This document shows positions 14,134 through 30,448 of a DNA stretch of 34,049 nt, piece by piece. The stretch comes from a virus. Within the stretch, counting starts at the first letter, position 1, and each line of letters begins with the position of its first letter. The position numbers and the translations under genes were made by a program. Where the stretch lies: positions 1 to 34,049 of IMG/VR virus record IMGVR_UViG_3300012964_000032, one strand, 5' to 3'. Below the pieces are notes generated by a model. The model was not told the DNA's origin, did no database searches, and saw only the letters and a list, made by a program, of their open reading frames with translations.

Positions 14134-14161
14134 TTGACAAAGTATAAGGAACGCCTATAGT
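14134..14161 (+). promoter_or_regulatory. Sigma70-like promoter of the moron cassette
   Basis: Perfect TTGACA (14134-14139), a 16-base spacer and TATAGT (14156-14161). The start is expected near 14168, which is the ATG of the next gene, so the message may be leaderless. It lies between the end of terL and the structural genes. Confidence 0.7.
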
Positions 14162-14167
14162 AATATT

Positions 14168-14350
14168 ATGAAATGTAAAGATTGTAAATATTATGGTAAG
14201 TACAAAGGTAATTTACACCGTAATGACAAAGATAAAGAACTTTATGAATGTTTAAATGAGAAGTTTAATAATATGTTAATTTGTTGTTGTGAATGTGTTC
14301 ATTTTAATCCGGACGAAGATTTTGGATGTATATTATTTGAACCTAAATAA
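14168..14350 (+). CDS. Small Cys-rich protein in an autonomous cassette
   Basis: A 60-residue protein with CKDCKYY at the start and CCCECVHF plus a final Cys near the end, the pattern of a small zinc-binding protein similar in style to the 6860-7042 product. It is AT-rich compared with terL and portal. It has its own promoter immediately upstream, no Shine-Dalgarno (the predicted transcript begins at its ATG) and its own terminator downstream. That makes it a moron-like insertion in the late operon. Function unknown. Confidence 0.6.
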   Translation: MKCKDCKYYGKYKGNLHRNDKDKELYECLNEKFNNMLICCCECVHFNPDEDFGCILFEPK

Positions 14351-14355
14351 TTAAA

Positions 14356-14456
14356 TAACGGGCTCCCTGAAACTTAGGCCAAGGTCAAGGGACGCAAGAA
14401 CAAAATTTAAGCAGGTAAGTGCTTATCCATTTACCTGCTTTTTTTGTTGCCCGTTA
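14356..14456 (+). other. Structured RNA region closed by an 8-bp stem
   Basis: TAACGGGC (14356-14363) is perfectly complementary to GCCCGTTA (14449-14456). Inside are a hairpin closed by TCCCT (14364-14368) / AGGGA (14388-14392) and the terminator stem at 14410-14439. The 3' arm ends just before the AAGGAG of the next gene. It may be a composite terminator or a cis-regulatory leader of the structural operon. I see no match to a known riboswitch class. Confidence 0.5.
14410..14445 (+). terminator. Strong intrinsic terminator
   Basis: AGCAGGTAA (14410-14418) pairs perfectly with TTACCTGCT (14431-14439) around a 12-base loop, followed by a run of seven T (14439-14445). It ends the 14168 gene transcript and lies 31 bases before the next gene. 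Confidence 0.85.
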
Positions 14457-14475
14457 TAAGGAGATTTTTTTCGAT

Positions 14476-18402: not shown

Positions 18403-19326
18403 ATGAGTCTTCAAATACCGGTATCATTTGTTGACCAGTTCAAGGCGAACATCCTCATGCTCAGCCAGCAGAAGCAGGCCAAGCTGAGAGGTTGCTGCCG
18501 CCCTGAAGCGATCACAGGCGATACAATGTATGTTGAGCGCATTGGGCCGAAGGACGCCGTTCTGAACACGACACGGCACGGCGAAACGCCCATTTCAGAC
18601 GCCCAGCATTCAAGACGCAAGCTATCAATGGCGGATTATGATGTTCCTGCCGATTTGATAGACAAAGCTGATAAGCTGAAACTGCTTATCGATCCTCAAT
18701 CGTCTTACGTCAATAACCAGGCATCCTCCCTCAATCGAGCCATAGATGACGTGATTATCGCCGCCCTGTTCGGTGCCGCTTACAGTGGTCACACGGGCGC
18801 GACGACCGTCAATGTCTATGACGTCGGAGAGTGCCGCCTGGTAAATTCGGACGGTACTATCGAGGCCGCAGGAAGCGATTGGGACGATGACACCGAAACC
18901 GGCCTTACAATAGCAAAGCTTCTGACCTGCAAGCAACTCCTTGACGACGCTGAGATTGACGAGGAACGTCAGAGATATTTCCTCACGAATCCCTACAACA
19001 TCAACCAGTTGCTCAATACCACCGAAGTCAAGAGCGCGGACTACAACACCGTTAAGGCGTTAGCCCAGGGATATATTGATACTTTTATGGGCTTTAAGTT
19101 CATAAAGAGTACGAGACTTCCCGCGGACGATAGCGACACGGGCGCTACGAAATGCGCGGCTTTCGCGCAGGACGCAATAGTCCTGGCGGTGGCGCAGGAA
19201 CCACAGGTGGACATAAGTGTTCGTAACGATTTACGAAACGCCGTACAAGTATATTCGACACTCAGTATAGGCGCAACAAGAGTCGAAGGGCCCGCGGTAG
19301 TTCCAATTCTTCTGGATACTGTATAA
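18403..19326 (+). CDS. Major capsid protein
   Basis: A 307-residue protein forming the icosahedral shell. Position after the scaffold, length, and segments such as MSLQIPVSFVDQFKANILML, KLSMADYDVPADLIDKADK, SSLNRAIDDVIIAALFGAA and YLTNPYNINQLL-like (here RYFLTNPYNINQLL) match T7 gp10/podovirus-type capsid proteins, and the end (VYSTLSIGATRVEGPAVVPI) is characteristic of the group. HK97-type fold is expected. Its 5' leader is long and structured, unlike all other genes in this operon. Confidence 0.85.
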   Translation: MSLQIPVSFVDQFKANILMLSQQKQAKLRGCCRPEAITGDTMYVERIGPKDAVLNTTRHGETPISDAQHSRRKLSMADYDVPADLIDKADKLKLLIDPQSSYVNNQASSLNRAIDDVIIAALFGAAYSGHTGATTVNVYDVGECRLVNSDGTIEAAGSDWDDDTETGLTIAKLLTCKQLLDDAEIDEERQRYFLTNPYNINQLLNTTEVKSADYNTVKALAQGYIDTFMGFKFIKSTRLPADDSDTGATKCAAFAQDAIVLAVAQEPQVDISVRNDLRNAVQVYSTLSIGATRVEGPAVVPILLDTV

Positions 19327-22853: not shown

Positions 22854-25268
22854 ATGCCTGGTACATTCGCATACACTGTAGCAACAAACAAGATAGTCGT
22901 TACTGATGGTACATCCGGTGCGCCTGCCACGTTCAATGATATGTACACGGCAGACCAAGCGGGTACGGGGACTATCCTGAATGTCGCGGAGAATGGTGCG
23001 GCTGCCGTCACTCTCGATTACCAGATACGACCGACGCATTCTAAAGCCTTGATAATCAAATGTATCGTTACCTTAAAGACGGCGGAGGCTGATTATATCT
23101 TCATTACCGGAACTGATGCGTGGGACGCCGCCCAGACTGAATCTCTCGATGTTACGGCAGGCAACGGCACTTATACCACGACCAAACGATTCAAGACAAT
23201 TACGAATCTTGATTGTTCTGATAATGCCGCAGGTGGCGGTACGGTCTGGGCGGACGGGAAAATCGCCGTTACACAGGACATCTGGGGAGTAGTTTGGGAG
23301 ATTGTAGCTGACGCTGAGTATAAGATTGACTGCAATGTTGACTTTGGCGATGGAGTGACGGCGACATATTTTACAAGCAAGAACGAATTAGTTTATTTTG
23401 CCGACGATATTGATATTCTCGTGACGGCTAACGCAACACTGAAATTGGGAGAAAGCAATGGAGATTATAGTCGCAACGGGTCAATGTGGAGTTTGCATCT
23501 TTCATCTACTCCAAAGACAATTTCCAACACGAACGGCACAATAATTCTATATGCTTCGTTTCTGAAATTCAGGTCGAATGTTCTTGTTCGTAGTTACGCC
23601 AACTGCACAATCAATAAATCTCAAATTGATATGTCCTATGATATTTTTGGGGGTGACATTATCTCATGGTCGTTTCGAGATGGAAATATAAATCTGGAGA
23701 GTTTTTATATATGTAATACAGGTTCACTTGCTTTTTCAGTATCTCCTATTTCTGCAAACAATATTCATATTCACGACACGAAGTATGGTTTGGAATTCGA
23801 TACTGGTAATGTTACTGTTTCTAAATTACTAATAACGGATGCTTCTACAGAAGAATGTCGCGGTTATCTCACAGATAGTATCATTACAGACCCCGTGATT
23901 ATTCCAACATTGATAGGAATGTATGATTCTGGAGATTCACTCACAGTAAGATATACGACGAATATCCACGTAGCTGATGAAGATGGAAATGATTTGGCAG
24001 GAGTTACGGTTGCCTGTGTTGATAAAGATGATACGGCAGTTTTCAGTGTAGTAACTGATGCTAACGGTGACATTGCAGAACAAACGATAAATTATAAGAA
24101 ATGGGCAGGAACGGACGAAACGCTCACCGAATATAGTCCGCATAAATTTACATTAACATACGGTTCGGAGACACAAGACATAGAAGCTATCACCGTTGAC
24201 CATCCTATTGTATGGCATCTGGAATTTCCTTCTTACACGACATTAGGAACTCAAGTTGCGGCGATTTATAACAAATTGCCAACGAATTACATTATGGGTA
24301 GTAGTAACGTAAATGACCAAGATACAGTTATTCATACTGGTACTGTCCCTGATGATAATTCAACTGCAAACAGTATTAACTTAGCTGCTTCGGCATCTGC
24401 AACGAATGATATTTATAATGAGAATCTTGTTATTATTATTAGTGGTACTGGTTCTGGACAGGCAAGACTTATTACTGATTATTTCGGTGGCTTAAAAGCA
24501 GCGGCCATTAGAAATTCCTGGGTAATTACTCCTGACCATACGAGCGTCTATCGAATATATCCATTCAGCGGTATTTTATACGCCAATACCGGGGTATGCA
24601 ACGGCGGGGCGGCAGATTCAATTACATTACGAACTCCTGCTCCTGCAACGGCAGACTTATACAATGGTCATACAATTTATATAAGCGGCGGGACAGGAGT
24701 AGGCCAGGCACGATTGATAACAGATTACTCAGCGGGATTGGTAGCTACAATTAGTCCTAACTGGGATATTACACCTGTTGTCAATGATAGCGTATATATC
24801 GTTCTTCCGATTGGTATTGGAAATGTATATGCAGATGTAACTGCTATAAAAACTGTTACGGATGTCATACCAAACGCCGGTGCATTAACTGATATAGATA
24901 CCGGAGTTAATAATATCGAAACGGCAGTAATTACCAATGCGGCAGGAACGGATATAGCGGCTGATATTATAGCTTTACAGACAGATGTAACTACAATTGA
25001 CGGTAAGGCAGACGTGATTCAGGAGCGGACGGACAATCTGCCTGATGACCCCGCCGACCAGAGCGAGGTCGAGACTGCCATAACTGCCGCCCAGACGGCG
25101 ATAGTTGATGAGGTCGATGCCAACGAGGCTAAAATCGATATTATAGATACCAACGTAGATACGATACTTACCCTGGAAGGAACAGTCGTCAACGTCTATT
25201 CAGCGACGGGAACGGCCAAGAAGAAGATTACAGGGGGAATGGCTCAGGGCTACGTAGAGGAAGATTAA
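22854..25268 (+). CDS. Large fibre/spike-like virion protein
   Basis: An 804-residue multidomain protein. Residues 1-150 form a beta-rich head domain; about 150-345 look like a right-handed beta-helix with short repetitive strands; about 368-458 form an Ig-like or carboxypeptidase-regulatory-like domain (NIHVADEDGNDLAGVTVACV). Two related modules follow (about 518-570 and 601-653), each with SGTGxGQARLITDY then W-IT. The C-terminal 100 residues are helical, with IDIIDTNVDTI coiled-coil-like stretches. Such architecture suits a host-recognition fibre or spike between tail adaptor and nozzle genes. Carbohydrate binding is plausible; no enzymatic site is recognised. Confidence 0.7.
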   Translation: MPGTFAYTVATNKIVVTDGTSGAPATFNDMYTADQAGTGTILNVAENGAAAVTLDYQIRPTHSKALIIKCIVTLKTAEADYIFITGTDAWDAAQTESLDVTAGNGTYTTTKRFKTITNLDCSDNAAGGGTVWADGKIAVTQDIWGVVWEIVADAEYKIDCNVDFGDGVTATYFTSKNELVYFADDIDILVTANATLKLGESNGDYSRNGSMWSLHLSSTPKTISNTNGTIILYASFLKFRSNVLVRSYANCTINKSQIDMSYDIFGGDIISWSFRDGNINLESFYICNTGSLAFSVSPISANNIHIHDTKYGLEFDTGNVTVSKLLITDASTEECRGYLTDSIITDPVIIPTLIGMYDSGDSLTVRYTTNIHVADEDGNDLAGVTVACVDKDDTAVFSVVTDANGDIAEQTINYKKWAGTDETLTEYSPHKFTLTYGSETQDIEAITVDHPIVWHLEFPSYTTLGTQVAAIYNKLPTNYIMGSSNVNDQDTVIHTGTVPDDNSTANSINLAASASATNDIYNENLVIIISGTGSGQARLITDYFGGLKAAAIRNSWVITPDHTSVYRIYPFSGILYANTGVCNGGAADSITLRTPAPATADLYNGHTIYISGGTGVGQARLITDYSAGLVATISPNWDITPVVNDSVYIVLPIGIGNVYADVTAIKTVTDVIPNAGALTDIDTGVNNIETAVITNAAGTDIAADIIALQTDVTTIDGKADVIQERTDNLPDDPADQSEVETAITAAQTAIVDEVDANEAKIDIIDTNVDTILTLEGTVVNVYSATGTAKKKITGGMAQGYVEED

Positions 25269-27607
25269 TGCCTAATATACCGATACTTTTGTTCTCGAAG
25301 GGAGAAGTGACTCCTTTGATAGACGCAAGGAACGATACGGAGGTCTATCAGGCCGCCTGCCGTCATTTAGAGAACTTCATAGCGCGGATGTACGGCGACG
25401 CCGAAAGGAGGCCGGGCACTAAGTACATCGCCGGCATGAGAGATTCGGATGATAGTGAGACCGTGGCCGGTGTGTCTAAGGCGTTGTTAGTTCCCTTCAT
25501 TTATTCTGAGGACGTTGCGTATCTTCTGGAGTTCACTCAGTATCATATCAGGGTCTTTTATGACGACACTCTTTTGGATTCTCTTGCAAGCCCTTATCTT
25601 GAAACAGACCTGTTCGACCTTCAATTCAAACAGTTGGGGGACGTTATATGGATAACTCACAATGATTATGCCCAGAGGAAATTCTTGAGGGTAAGCACAT
25701 CTTATTTCGCCCTTGAGCCGATAAATTTTGAAAAAGGCCCGTTTATGACTCGTAACGACCTCGCCGTGGGGGATGGTATTACGATGAAGAACAGCGGGAA
25801 CTGGTCAGGCGTTACCGATGACCAGACTGATACGGGTTGTACGATGGACGCCAGTAGTGAGTATTCCACGGCCTACGCCGCCGAGAAGGCAGTTGATGAC
25901 CTATTTACAACCAAATGGCAGTCGAGCGGAGCGACCAACCAGTGGATAAGCTGTTACTGGTCGGGGGGAAAGGCGATAAAGCAGGTAAGATTCCTCTGTG
26001 CCGTTGCTACTCCTTATAGTAATTATAACGCCAAGCACGTTAAAATCCAGAGGAGCGATAACGGCACGGACTGGACAAAATGCTCGATTAACGCCTGGTA
26101 CGGTAATTGCGCGGCTTACAATACCGATGAGGCACTGTTGGACAATATGCACCGCTCCCAGGAGTGGGTAAGGTTCGGTCTTAATAATTCCACCTCTTAC
26201 AATTACTGGCGGATATACGTGACCGACGTTTACGACCGTATGCAGGACGATTATTATGTGGACAAGGTTGCTATTACCGAATTGGAGATGTCAACGGACG
26301 CCGCGAGCACGGAAAACTTTACCCTTACCTGTTCGGCTGATTATTTCAGCGCGGACCACGTCGGAACTCTTTTCAGTCTTACCCAGGTCAGGGTAAATAC
26401 GGAAGTGACGATAACCAAGGCTGCTACAGTAACAGACGAATATTCGGACGAGCTGCTCGTGGAGGGTCAGTTCAATATCGACGCCAACTGCTCCACGGGC
26501 GCGTGGACGGGAACGCTTTTGATAGAGAGAAAAATAGATGTGGAGGGCACATGGGAAACTTACCGGACTTATAAATCTAACAATCTCAATAGGGTCATTC
26601 AATTTTCAGGTGTTGAGGAGGATATAAACTGTTATTACAGGATACATATTGAGAGTTTGACTTTGGGTACTTTATGGGCGGCAATTTCCGTTATGGATAG
26701 TACGCAGACGGGAATATGCAAAGTCGTTAAATACGTCAGTACTACCCAGGTCGAAATTGACATTCTGAAAGACTTCGCATCAACTGAGGAAACTACCAAG
26801 TGGGCGGAAGGGGCATGGAGTACGATTCGCGGTTATCCCATCAGCATCACTTTTATCGAAGGCCGGTGCGTTTACGGCGGGATGAAGTCTTTGGCGAACG
26901 ATACGAAGCTCGCTACGGTATGGCTTTCAGCCGTCGATGATTACGAGGATTTCGACGAAGGCGTGAAGGGCGGGGACGCCTTCTCTTTGACTATTCCCAC
27001 GACCGAAACTCTTTCGTGGGTTGAAGCAATGGACAATTTGATTATTGCCACTGAGGGCGATACGTGGTTTGTAAGGTCGAGCAAGATGGACACGCCTTTA
27101 GTACCCGATCCCCCGCCTATTGTCAGGCAACAGTCGGGATATGGTTGCGATCCGATTCGTCCGGTGGACGGCGGGAAGGCATTGCTTTATATATCAGGCA
27201 GGCAGTTGAGAGAACTTGCTTATGACCGTGAAGCGTCTCAGTTTGACGCCGATATGACGGCTCTTGCTGAGCATTTTACGGCCTCCCCGATAGTCCAGAT
27301 GGCGATGCAGTACGATCCTGAGATGATTCTGTGGTGTGTTCACAACAACGGTGATTTCAGTGCGTTTGTCTATGACAGGGAAAACAACGTGACCGCATGG
27401 TGCTGGATAGTCATGGCGGGGGATGTTCAGAGCGTTTGCGTCCTTCCTCACAGCGACCAGGGCGATGACGTTTATATCACGATTAACCGTACTATTACCG
27501 GAAAGACTGTCGTTGACGGAGAAGATACGGTTTATGACGGGGACGAGATTGTGACTGATAAACTTTATCCTATTTATATCGAGAAATTCGCACAAAGGTT
27601 CGAATGA
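25268..27607 (+). CDS. Tail nozzle (tubular protein B, T7 gp12-like) with F5/8C-type insert
   Basis: A 779-residue nozzle protein capping the short tail. The start, PILLFSKGEVTPLIDARNDTEVYQAACRH (shown in part: FSKGEVTPLIDAR), ENFIARMYGDAERRPGTKYI, and the later VWLSAVDDYEDFDEG and RQLRELAYD segments are diagnostic of the family. Residues about 185-342 form an inserted discoidin/F5-8C-like domain (SEYSTAYAAEKAVDD, KWQS, VRFGLNNSTSYNYWRIYVTD), a sugar-binding fold. The protein ends at IEKFAQRFE, where homologues I recall continue into the domain encoded by the next gene. Start overlaps the previous stop by one base. Confidence 0.85.
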   Translation: MPNIPILLFSKGEVTPLIDARNDTEVYQAACRHLENFIARMYGDAERRPGTKYIAGMRDSDDSETVAGVSKALLVPFIYSEDVAYLLEFTQYHIRVFYDDTLLDSLASPYLETDLFDLQFKQLGDVIWITHNDYAQRKFLRVSTSYFALEPINFEKGPFMTRNDLAVGDGITMKNSGNWSGVTDDQTDTGCTMDASSEYSTAYAAEKAVDDLFTTKWQSSGATNQWISCYWSGGKAIKQVRFLCAVATPYSNYNAKHVKIQRSDNGTDWTKCSINAWYGNCAAYNTDEALLDNMHRSQEWVRFGLNNSTSYNYWRIYVTDVYDRMQDDYYVDKVAITELEMSTDAASTENFTLTCSADYFSADHVGTLFSLTQVRVNTEVTITKAATVTDEYSDELLVEGQFNIDANCSTGAWTGTLLIERKIDVEGTWETYRTYKSNNLNRVIQFSGVEEDINCYYRIHIESLTLGTLWAAISVMDSTQTGICKVVKYVSTTQVEIDILKDFASTEETTKWAEGAWSTIRGYPISITFIEGRCVYGGMKSLANDTKLATVWLSAVDDYEDFDEGVKGGDAFSLTIPTTETLSWVEAMDNLIIATEGDTWFVRSSKMDTPLVPDPPPIVRQQSGYGCDPIRPVDGGKALLYISGRQLRELAYDREASQFDADMTALAEHFTASPIVQMAMQYDPEMILWCVHNNGDFSAFVYDRENNVTAWCWIVMAGDVQSVCVLPHSDQGDDVYITINRTITGKTVVDGEDTVYDGDEIVTDKLYPIYIEKFAQRFE

Positions 27608-28140
27608 ACAGAGAAGATGCATATTTTGTTGATTGCGGAGTGGTTTATGACGGTGTGGCGACCACGACTATAAGTGGTCTTACGCACCTTCTTGGCGAGA
27701 CGGTAACGATTCTTGCCGATGGCGAGGTTATAGACGACCAGGTAGTTTCGGACACAGGGACGATTACTTTGACGACCGCAGCGAGCCTGGTTCATGTCGG
27801 ACTGGCTTTTACTTCCAAACTTGAGCCTATGAAGCCGGTCATAGAGACGCGGATGGGTAGCTCGGCGGCTTCGATAGTCGCCTGTCACGATATGGGTATT
27901 TCGTTTCATAACACGTCCGGGGTTCAGTACGGGACTTCGGACGATGAATTGTATGATATAGACTTCGATGACGTTCGATGGGAAAATACCTGCGAGAAGG
28001 ACGACTTATTTACAGGTGTTGTAAGGGTATCAGTGAATGGCGGTTTCAGTCTTGATAATCCTCTTATTATAAGCACAGACGAGCCTTTGCCGTGTACCGT
28101 GAGGGCTTTAATACCGGCGGTGAATGTGACGGGAAGATGA
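27604..28140 (+). CDS. Detached nozzle C-terminal domain protein, copy 1
   Basis: A 178-residue protein beginning MNREDAYFVDCGVVYDG, then HLLGETVTILADGEVIDDQV and EKDDLFTGVVRVSVNGGFS. In gp12-like proteins as I know them this domain follows directly after the IEKFAQRF-type segment, so here the nozzle appears to be split at an ATGA junction. AAAGG six bases upstream allows independent initiation. It probably assembles with the truncated nozzle. A paralogue with an inserted propeller follows. Confidence 0.75.
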   Translation: MNREDAYFVDCGVVYDGVATTTISGLTHLLGETVTILADGEVIDDQVVSDTGTITLTTAASLVHVGLAFTSKLEPMKPVIETRMGSSAASIVACHDMGISFHNTSGVQYGTSDDELYDIDFDDVRWENTCEKDDLFTGVVRVSVNGGFSLDNPLIISTDEPLPCTVRALIPAVNVTGR

Positions 28141-29879
28141 ATAGAGAAAACGCATATTTCGTTGACTGTGGAAATTCGATGAGCCGGAGCGAACTTGAAT
28201 ACAGGGAAGAAGGTTACGGAGAACTCGTGAGCAAGACCTATACGGAATATTTCGTAGGTCAGCATTGGGCTGCCGGAAGCGACCAGGACATTGTCCTGAA
28301 AGTCACAACTGATAACGTTCTTGATACGACCTGGGGCGATAATGGAACGTGGCATTATCTTGGCGTCAACGGAAGTACGACTTCGTGTAGAGACGTTATC
28401 CAGTTGGATGACGGCAGATTACTGGTTGCTTTTGGGTCTTTTTGGATAGATGGAACTGGAATGTTCGACGGCGGCAAGTCTGTGTGCTGTGCCATGCTGG
28501 CCGAAGATGGCACGCTTGATACCTCATGGGGCTATAACGGTTTTTTGGTGACTTATTCCGTGGATTTGGGGATTTTATACGGAAGTATCAGTGTGGAGAA
28601 ACTTTTGCAGGATTCAAACGGCAATTTTCACGTGTTAGGCGATTACAGTCTCATGTGCGATGAGGATGGGACAATTCTTCGAATACTGACTAATTTGCCT
28701 TTATCGCCTTCATGGGTTTATGATGGGGTCTTTGACGCCGATGGTACGAGTGTTATTGCGGTAGGAAGTGCAAAACAAATATCAGGAGCGACATTTTACA
28801 ATGTCACGGCGTATAGTATAGAGGATGGTTCTTTAGATACGAGTTTCACAGGCAATATCGGAGTCCCTGGACGGGCGGTTATAGGCGTACCTTCTTATGA
28901 CGCCGCAACAACTTACGGAATCAGGCGACTCAGCGATGGTTATGTAATAACGATTTATACTACATCATCTTCGAATACAATAGGGAAACTTTCATTGACC
29001 GGTTCTGTTGATACTTCATGGGGAACGTCCGGCTACAATGATATAGGATTGTATGTCTATGGCAGAAGGGGCATTACAAATATCGGTGACACGGTTTACA
29101 CGGTTGCGGAAAACTCTCTTGCCGACCAGGACACGGTTGAAATGTCGAGGATAGATTCGTCCGGTACGATTGACCTGCAATATTTTGATTACGATACAGG
29201 TTCTATAGATACTTTCTTATTAATTGATAATTTCAATGATTATCTTTATTTCGGAACGCAGTTGGCCGAGACTGTGCAAAAGTGGAATACTGATTTCGAA
29301 TATCAGGACGGTTTTACAAGCGGTTCATCTTATACGACTACAATCATCCCTGATGAGACCACGGCGATAAACACTTACGAGGAGTCTGAAAGCGAGTCCG
29401 AAAGATGGCTCGTTACGGGACAGAACCACCTGATAGGAGAGACGGTTGCCATTCTTGCCGATGGTGAAGTGCTGCCAAGACAGGTAGTTGATGATAATGG
29501 GAACATAACTCTTGACCAGGCATACGACATAGTTACGTGGGGACTTCCTTATAAGTCGAAGATAATGCCGATGAAAAACGTGACTAAGACTCAAAGGGGA
29601 AGTTCTATGGCGAGCAAAGTATCGTGCAAGGAGATGGGAATTAGTTTCCACAATACGGACTTGGTTCGGTATGGAACGGCGGATGATAAAATGTTCGATG
29701 TTAACTTCGATGATGCCCGATGGGAGAACAGGTGCGAAAAAGATGATTTGTTTACGGGGACGGTTGCGGTTAGCGTTGATGGCGGGTTCTCCGTAGATTG
29801 CCCGTTGCAGTTGACGACAGACGAACCCCTGCCGTGTGTAGTCAGGGCGATGATACCGAAGGTGGATGTGACTGGATAG
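28137..29879 (+). CDS. Nozzle C-terminal domain paralogue with inserted beta-propeller
   Basis: A 580-residue protein. Residues 1-15 (MNRENAYFVDCGNS) and about 425-580 (HLIGETVAILADGEVLPRQV ... EKDDLFTGTVAVSVDGGFS) are clearly homologous to the preceding 178-residue product. Between them, about 45-400, is an insertion with repeats of the delta-60 type (LDTTWGDNGT, LDTSWGYNGF, LDTSFTGN, VDTSWGTSG), expected to form a beta-propeller. The start is ATG 28137 in the ATGA overlap. This suggests tandem gene duplication followed by domain insertion, probably adding a receptor- or glycan-binding module to the tail tip. Confidence 0.75.
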   Translation: MNRENAYFVDCGNSMSRSELEYREEGYGELVSKTYTEYFVGQHWAAGSDQDIVLKVTTDNVLDTTWGDNGTWHYLGVNGSTTSCRDVIQLDDGRLLVAFGSFWIDGTGMFDGGKSVCCAMLAEDGTLDTSWGYNGFLVTYSVDLGILYGSISVEKLLQDSNGNFHVLGDYSLMCDEDGTILRILTNLPLSPSWVYDGVFDADGTSVIAVGSAKQISGATFYNVTAYSIEDGSLDTSFTGNIGVPGRAVIGVPSYDAATTYGIRRLSDGYVITIYTTSSSNTIGKLSLTGSVDTSWGTSGYNDIGLYVYGRRGITNIGDTVYTVAENSLADQDTVEMSRIDSSGTIDLQYFDYDTGSIDTFLLIDNFNDYLYFGTQLAETVQKWNTDFEYQDGFTSGSSYTTTIIPDETTAINTYEESESESERWLVTGQNHLIGETVAILADGEVLPRQVVDDNGNITLDQAYDIVTWGLPYKSKIMPMKNVTKTQRGSSMASKVSCKEMGISFHNTDLVRYGTADDKMFDVNFDDARWENRCEKDDLFTGTVAVSVDGGFSVDCPLQLTTDEPLPCVVRAMIPKVDVTG

Positions 29880-29903
29880 AATTATAGTAGTGTCAATAGA
29901 AAT

Positions 29904-29918
29904 AAAAAAAGTCAGTAA
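29904..29918 (-). terminator. Intrinsic terminator tail of the small RNA
   Basis: The 3' arm TTACTGACT of the outer stem is followed by uninterrupted U residues on the minus strand (plus-strand A-run 29904-29910). On the plus strand the other side of the stem is followed by AATATAATT, so the element is directional. Confidence 0.6.
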
Positions 29919-29998
29919 ATTAGTAGTTGCCTTCTACGGGCGAATGGCTGCGCTCGGTCTGGCTACCGATTATCCATCGCCGTTTTAACTTACTGACT
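29904..29998 (-). ncRNA. Candidate minus-strand small RNA, about 95 nt
   Basis: Read on the minus strand, AGTCAGTAA opens and TTACTGACT closes a perfect 9-bp stem (29998-29990 with 29918-29910). Inside are GGCGATGG/CCATTCGCC (one bulge) capped by TCGGT-agccag-ACCGA, and a GTAG-aaggcaa-CTAC hairpin, giving a three-way junction. The closing stem runs into seven U. A promoter with consensus hexamers lies just upstream (30005-30032). No good ORF is present on the minus strand here. It is antisense to the space between the tail and internal virion genes. Family unknown. Confidence 0.65.
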
Positions 29999-30004
29999 AA
30001 TATA

Positions 30005-30032
30005 ATTATAACTGGTGTATAGAGAATGTCAA
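30005..30032 (-). promoter_or_regulatory. Consensus sigma70 promoter of the small RNA
   Basis: On the minus strand, perfect TTGACA (30032-30027), a 16-base spacer and perfect TATAAT (30010-30005). Transcription should start near 29998, exactly at the 5' side of the outer stem. The -35 box overlaps the ATG of the plus-strand GNAT gene at 30026. Confidence 0.7.
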
Positions 30033-30448
30033 TAGAGATTAGAGACGCAAAACCAGAAGATTTGGATTATTGCCGGAAGAACGGCATTGACGAGGACATG
30101 AAAGTCTATCCCAATTGGGACTTGACCGGCTGGACAAAAACAATGTTGATAGACGGGGAGATTGTGGGAATAGGCGGTATTGTAATTTACTGGCAGGGGA
30201 TGGGCGAAGGATGGATATGCGTATCGAAGAATATAGAAAAACATCCTGTAAAGTCGGTTTTGAGATTGAAGAATCTTTTGATGGAAGTGTTGAAAGAACT
30301 TGATTTAAGGCGTTTGCAGGTGGCGGTCAGGTTTGACTTTGCCCAGGCGATAAAACTCGTTCAGGCACTTGGTTTTGAAAAAGAATGTCTTATGAAAAAG
30401 TACCTGCCGGGCGGTAAAAACGCCTGGTTATACAGTATCGTGAGGTGA
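30026..30448 (+). CDS. GNAT-like acetyltransferase-family virion protein
   Basis: A 140-residue protein with a GNAT layout: MSIEIRDAKPEDLDYC at the start, GEIVGIGGIVIYW (central strands), a helix at LKNLLMEVLKELDLRRLQV and the final FDFAQAIKLVQALGFEKECL. GNAT-fold proteins at this position occur in T7-like phages (gp13 region) and have structural or internal-virion roles rather than proven acetylation. The acetyl-CoA-binding P-loop (Q/RxxGxG/A) is not evident. The start codon sits under the -35 box of the minus-strand RNA promoter. Confidence 0.7.
   Translation: MSIEIRDAKPEDLDYCRKNGIDEDMKVYPNWDLTGWTKTMLIDGEIVGIGGIVIYWQGMGEGWICVSKNIEKHPVKSVLRLKNLLMEVLKELDLRRLQVAVRFDFAQAIKLVQALGFEKECLMKKYLPGGKNAWLYSIVR

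Follow-up and report, generated by a model that had tools for sequence, protein, structure and literature searches.

The window analysed here is a virus contig from IMG/VR, 34,049 bases long, whose genes follow the order of epsilon15/T7-like podoviruses (terminase phrog_675, portal phrog_332, major head protein phrog_3437, tail protein phrog_376 and internal virion protein phrog_418). In its virion operon, a tail nozzle gene with its stop codon at 29877-29879 is separated from a GNAT-like gene by a spacer of 146 nt (29880-30025). A predicted RNA of 95 nt on the minus strand lies wholly inside this spacer, and only the -35 box of the cassette (29904-30032) overlaps coding sequence (Table 1). 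The initial annotation had described a podovirus-like phage with the RNA antisense in its virion operon. The location is right, as portal (phrog_332) and tail (phrog_376) genes are present, but the RNA lies opposite the spacer and not opposite a gene. No reading frame of note crosses the RNA on the minus strand, and a tRNA/tmRNA search found none. The ORFs scanned include no lysogeny gene and thus give no support for a lysogenic role.

Table 1. Features of the minus-strand cassette, its flanking genes and the head-operon RNA family (positions in the window)
Feature	Position	Strand	Remarks
Upstream gene, carrying the second nozzle C-terminal domain copy (aa 417-595) and a long extra N-terminal part	28092..29879	+	phrog_376
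Collapsed second promoter copy, TTGACA-4-TATAAT, ATTTCTATTGACACTACTATAATTCTAT	29879..29902	-	direct repeats D2, D5
Predicted 95-nt small RNA	29904..29998	-	predicted start A29998, end in U7
Seven-T tract, end of cassette	29904..29910	-	
P1 3' arm, UAAUUUACUGACU, then U-tract	29910..29922	-	
P3 arm, GUAG/CUAC, loop AAGGCAA	29923..29937	-	abuts P1 directly
P2 arm, GGCGA/UCGCC + UGG/CCA + UCGGU/ACCGA, loop AGCCAG	29939..29981	-	z -2.7 alone
P1 5' arm, AGUCAGUAAGUUA	29986..29998	-	
-10 box TATAAT	30005..30010	-	16-nt spacer from the -35 box
-35 box TTGACA	30027..30032	-	overlaps codons 1-3 of the plus-strand GNAT-like gene
Downstream GNAT-like gene	30026..30448	+	related to phrog_4177 and phrog_308 (internal virion protein)
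Head-operon RNA family	14357..14457	+	other members L013, L036-L072, L076; alignment A2, model R2

Read on the minus strand, the cassette runs from TTGACA (beginning at 30032) over 16 nt to TATAAT (ending at 30005), then over seven nt to A29998 and through the 95 nt of the RNA. The predicted start A29998 is the seventh base past the -10 box and at the same time the first base of the closing stem. The promoter is the sole 12/12 match in the window to the sigma-70 consensus, which is bacterial and may not be that of the host. The runners-up are one 11/12 site (14134, plus strand) and several 10/12 sites. Dinucleotide shuffling of the whole window (25 shuffles, spacers of 15-19 allowed) yielded 0.04 perfect promoters per shuffle. 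A promoter of 11-12/12 whose start region opens a stem of at least 8 bp that runs into a T-tract occurs once in the real window and in none of the 25 dinucleotide-shuffled windows. The coordinates of the perfect promoter in the initial annotation are right, and its view that the register of start, fold and terminator is hard to explain by chance is borne out.

The 95-nt RNA is predicted to fold into the three-way junction that the initial annotation had described, with the helices P1, P2 and P3. The minimum free energy of -33.2 kcal/mol compares with a shuffle mean of -18.6 (z about -5.4), and none of 200 shuffles is equally stable. P1 is a 13-bp closing helix (RNA positions 1-13 with 77-89) in which a perfect 9-bp part, AGUCAGUAA, is followed by a G-U and three further pairs. 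P2 is an interrupted arm of 13 bp (18-25 with 52-60 and 30-34 with 41-45), and P3 is an arm of 4 bp (62-65 with 73-76). As P3 abuts P1, the two helices may stack. The pair probabilities are mostly 0.84-1.00, except for one P2 pair (0.51) and the terminal A-U (0.75). The excess stability is mostly in P1. The inner arms are only modestly supported, since the inner 63 nt without P1 have a z of only -1.9 (nine of 200 shuffles equally stable) and P2 alone one of -2.7. The loops AGCCAG and AAGGCAA are complementary to each other in just three bases (GCC/GGC).

The first of the seven U at the end of the RNA pairs with A1, leaving six free. The perfect 9-bp stem and a T-run confined to the minus strand are confirmed, and a T-run is absent from the plus strand at the cassette. 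As a terminator, however, the arrangement claimed in the initial annotation is atypical, with a 63-nt enclosed 'loop' and only 3 G-C pairs in the 9-bp part. It does not have the form of a canonical intrinsic terminator (G+C-rich hairpin, short loop and T-run), and a scanner with a loop limit of 8 nt did not list it. Termination at P1 and U7 is plausible. At the level of sequence, the segment has the in-register promoter, the defined length and the end signal of an independently transcribed small RNA.

Past the major head gene (18403-19326), the majority of spacers do not exceed 20 nt, and the sole other large one is 109 nt. In the closest relative found (G004/L025, IMGVR 3300028920_000120), the portal of which is 80% identical, the end of the nozzle gene and the start of the GNAT gene share the four bases ATGA. 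In the more distant relatives G010 and G001, the next gene lies within a few bases of the nozzle-end gene. The exceptional spacer, together with the overlapping or tightly packed genes of the relatives, indicates that the cassette is an accessory, lineage-specific insertion; like a phage moron, it lies in an operon and is absent from the close relative G004. A collapsed copy of the promoter is located on the far side of the RNA, with a spacer of 4 nt compared with 16 nt, 12 nt shorter than in the intact copy. The alignment of the two copies has a score of 31.5, equalled by 0.27% of AT-rich 43/53-mer window pairs. The duplication suggests, with less than certainty, that the insertion was linked to a promoter or that a tandem unit has decayed, and it would be expected from recombinational entry of a promoter-linked unit.

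In the tail nozzle gene region (25268-29879, plus strand), the nozzle gene lacks its C-terminal domain. This domain is encoded twice downstream, at 27604-28140 and in the gene that precedes the spacer, where a long extra part comes before the second copy. In the relative G004 (L025 3347-4962, minus strand), the nozzle N-terminal part is duplicated, with one copy fused to a repeat-rich insert. Nozzle genes in this group of phages apparently tend to be duplicated in part and to capture domains in the process.

The initial annotation had matched the RNA to no family, and the Rfam covariance models agree, with no match at the gathering threshold. The three sub-threshold matches at E up to 5, including microRNA and CRISPR-repeat models, are chance matches, and phi29 pRNA is not among them. 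Blastn found no homologue of the RNA in phages and plasmids, the pattern AGTCAGTAA-N-TTACTGACTTTT did not occur in IMG/VR, and the record contains no second copy of the cassette. Searches for relatives through the GNAT protein in IMG/VR and through the portal in genome contigs found none. The covariance model R1, built from one sequence and therefore one that diverged homologues could escape, found no homologue over 414 kb of related loci and 398 bacterial genomes. Several candidates were rejected. The 16-mer CGGTAGCCAGACCGAG occurs in eight stretches, all unrelated; the 15-mer GTAGAAGGCAACTAC gave 40 matches and GGCGATGG/TCGGT/ACCGA 27, none of them structural by R1 (best E 2.5). An 18-mer had one chance match in GTDB contigs, in a Puniceibacterium MAG from which the rest of the RNA is absent, and an R1 match at 14410-14445 of the window (E 0.013) is merely a long hairpin before a T-run. 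Predicted duplexes of the RNA with phage gene starts, loops included, and with the structured segment at 14357 did not rise above background. As no relative was found, the function cannot be derived by comparison. Such an orphan could be an accessory RNA with rapid turnover, but also a non-functional insertion.

The structured segment at 14357-14457 (plus strand, z -6.1) lies between the terminase and portal genes. Two related phages (L013/L014) have a similar segment in the same gap, and a 20-base gapped pattern derived from it matched 39 stretches in IMG/VR, about 30 of them real. The alignment A2 of 27 distinct sequences shows a three-way junction with an invariant ACGCAAGAACAA...TTGTTGCCC and helices that are variable but compensated. 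Cells changed on both sides number 139 compared with 52 in shuffles, and the covariation score is 0.456 compared with 0.168 in shuffles and far above slid controls. The covariance model also picked up untrained members. L053, L063 and L069 each have a second copy at a distance of 5-6 kb (E 1e-18), and an unannotated member is present in the published virus vir555 (BK063671), whose host is given as Methanomicrobiales; there, the invariant helix AACAA/UUGUU is replaced by AAUAA/UUAUU, a compensatory change. The genes flanking the members are head genes from different families: portal (phrog_156 and phrog_332), terminase, protease (phrog_53), head morphogenesis (phrog_241) and major head proteins (phrog_212, phrog_371 and phrog_1357). 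In A2 columns 60-100 (14409-14440 of the window), the 5' strand of the big hairpin has two alternative partners, the adjacent copy or the distal 3' arm before the U-tract, and both pairings covary. Such alternative pairings beside a U-tract suggest a kinetic folding switch. No family matched this RNA at threshold in Rfam 15, and it was not found in the open-access literature. The head-operon RNA is a widespread covarying family in diverse tailed phages, absent from Rfam. The 95-nt RNA is not a member, as model R2 has no match at 29904 on the minus strand.

Three further observations concern this family and its surroundings. A bacterial genome (L144 1501-1596, minus strand) has a weak, diverged R2 match of 31.8 bits, the only one among 398 genomes sampled. 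A group I intron is located at L057 5605-5965 (minus strand), on a phage contig with the head-operon RNA. The second-best promoter of the window, TTGACA-16-TATAGT at 14134 (plus strand), stands directly before an A+T-rich, Cys-rich ORF of 60 aa (14168-14350) without a PHROG or Pfam match. Its predicted transcription start coincides with the ATG, so the ORF is possibly leaderless, and the unit at 14134-14350 looks like a protein moron.

The minus-strand segment 29904-29998 looks like a genuine small-RNA gene of a familiar general kind, albeit an orphan, and we consider this identification probable. The fuller reading, preferred here only tentatively and with a chance somewhat short of even, is that of an autonomous 'RNA moron' that is transcribed by the host polymerase and most likely acts in trans. 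This reading builds on the sequence, the register, the predicted fold, the intergenic site, the absence from the closest relative and the flanking promoter duplication, all of which are observed. A small autonomous non-coding RNA gene would have entered the virion operon between the tail nozzle gene and the gene that follows. The host sigma-70-type RNA polymerase would start at the consensus promoter of the RNA gene itself and run counter to the operon. Transcription would be constitutive and independent of the late-gene control of the phage, since the promoter would serve the host polymerase. In the transcript of ~95 nt, the 13-bp helix would seal the 5' to the 3' end and abut the short hairpin, before U7. 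The U-tract would release the polymerase and stabilise the RNA, and the sealed ends would likewise stabilise it. We infer the transcription, termination and autonomy from these sequence features. The likely contact surfaces are the loops AGCCAG and AAGGCAA and the A-rich junction. The target and the trans action are a guess, in which a host RNA, the RNA of a competing phage or an RNA-binding protein is most likely acted upon. The use of sigma-70 by the host of the phage is assumed; an archaeal host is possible, because one phage with a member of the head-operon RNA family has Methanomicrobiales as its given host. Prophage accessory (moron) loci are described as typically having independent promoters antisense to lytic genes (PMC7067206), and small phage RNAs (50-125 nt) that act in trans have been documented (PMC12197685).

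The best surviving alternative, which we regard as unlikely but worth weighing, is a cis-antisense RNA that would bind its complement, the spacer in the virion mRNA. Recruitment of RNase III or opening of the spacer would then lower or uncouple the downstream GNAT and internal virion genes, or related phages with the same spacer would be excluded. Complementarity to the operon mRNA is given by construction, precedents exist in P22 sar, whose pairing partner is ant mRNA (PMC12197685), and in STnc6030 of BTP1 (PMC7067206), and the -35 box overlaps the start of the next gene so that the two promoters and strands would interfere. However, the RNA covers non-coding spacer alone. Its 5' end at 29998 is 28 nt upstream of the next ATG at 30026, so that the translation start is not covered, as it would be by a sar-type RNA. 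The antisense brake on late mRNA proposed in the initial annotation would thus act on the spacer and leave the start region of the next gene unmasked, and the idea was not upheld. Moreover, the closest relatives have no such spacer to target, and a pure antisense RNA needs no highly structured three-way junction with sealed ends.

Lack of any function of its own is a rather less likely explanation. The segment would then be either an insertion that is degenerate or neutral, with an inverted repeat and promoter left over from recombination, or a small MITE-like element ending in AGTCAGTAA...TTACTGACT. The orphan sequence, the imperfect duplications on the flanks and the inner arms near chance are all consistent with this, but a perfect promoter with start, stem and T-tract in register is unlikely by chance. 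For a MITE, terminal inverted repeats, a target-site duplication and multiple copies would be expected. Only the inverted repeat is present: no clear target-site duplication abuts it, and a second copy is absent from the record and, by exact internal 15-18-mers, from the collections.

It is improbable that the functional structure is on the plus strand, where the folded spacer of the virion mRNA would serve processing or control translation between the nozzle and GNAT cistrons. The plus strand adopts nearly the same structure; the minus strand, however, is more stable (z -5.5 vs. -3.5), and it alone carries the promoter and the T-tract. It is also very improbable that the small RNA is structural, binds protein and serves the virion or packaging process of a podovirus whose terminase is ordinary, or that it aids host takeover by mimicking a structural RNA of the cell; in either case its fold would be unprecedented. 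The packaged RNA considered in the initial annotation found no supporting evidence, and phi29 pRNA, the one known Rfam packaging RNA, was not matched. A type I toxin-antitoxin-like pair, in which the RNA would silence a 32-codon plus-strand frame from GTG 29890 (VSIEIKKVSKLVVAFYGRMAALGLATDYPSPF), is scarcely credible: the open frame faces the RNA over nearly its whole length, but it has no clear Shine-Dalgarno sequence, is not strongly hydrophobic, is of a length often expected by chance, and has first codons that mirror the start of the GNAT gene as explained by the promoter duplication.

If the RNA moron is expressed, compact RNA-only cassettes would, beside protein genes, be inserted as morons in the virion operons of uncultured podoviruses. 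The cassette is a clean, self-contained unit of 130 bp, the effect of which on a host is testable by expression. It is a single orphan, and the covarying multi-phage family at 14357-14457 is the stronger result and of wider importance.

The known systems closest to the cassette are phage RNAs and morons. The phi29 pRNA is a phage RNA of about 120 nt with a three-way junction closed by paired 5' and 3' ends. The likeness is one of outline only (three-way junction and paired ends), as there is no covariance-model match even at E 5, and the source phage has a classical large terminase (phrog_675) with no indication of a phi29-type motor. P22 sar has its own promoter and lies within the arc-ant intergenic region. 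It is a small antisense phage RNA of 68/69 nt that pairs with ant mRNA and blocks the initiation of ant translation (PMC12197685). The 95-nt RNA is likewise a small antisense phage RNA; unlike sar, it is larger, forms a three-way junction, lies among tail genes and leaves 28 nt between itself and the next start codon. STnc6030 of phage BTP1, a superinfection-exclusion factor of 786 nt antisense to the tailspike and a DNA-injection gene (PMC7067206), is also an antisense RNA of a podovirus tail/injection-gene region. STnc6030 overlaps its target genes and comes from a lysogen, whereas the 95-nt RNA is spacer-borne, in a phage in which no lysogeny gene was seen. Among morons, lambda bor is an example from a late operon. 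A further example is STMMW_20121 (PMC7067206). Although both are protein-coding and the cassette has no frame on its own strand, it shares with late-operon morons its own promoter, a position in or antisense to the late or lytic region, and absence from a close relative.
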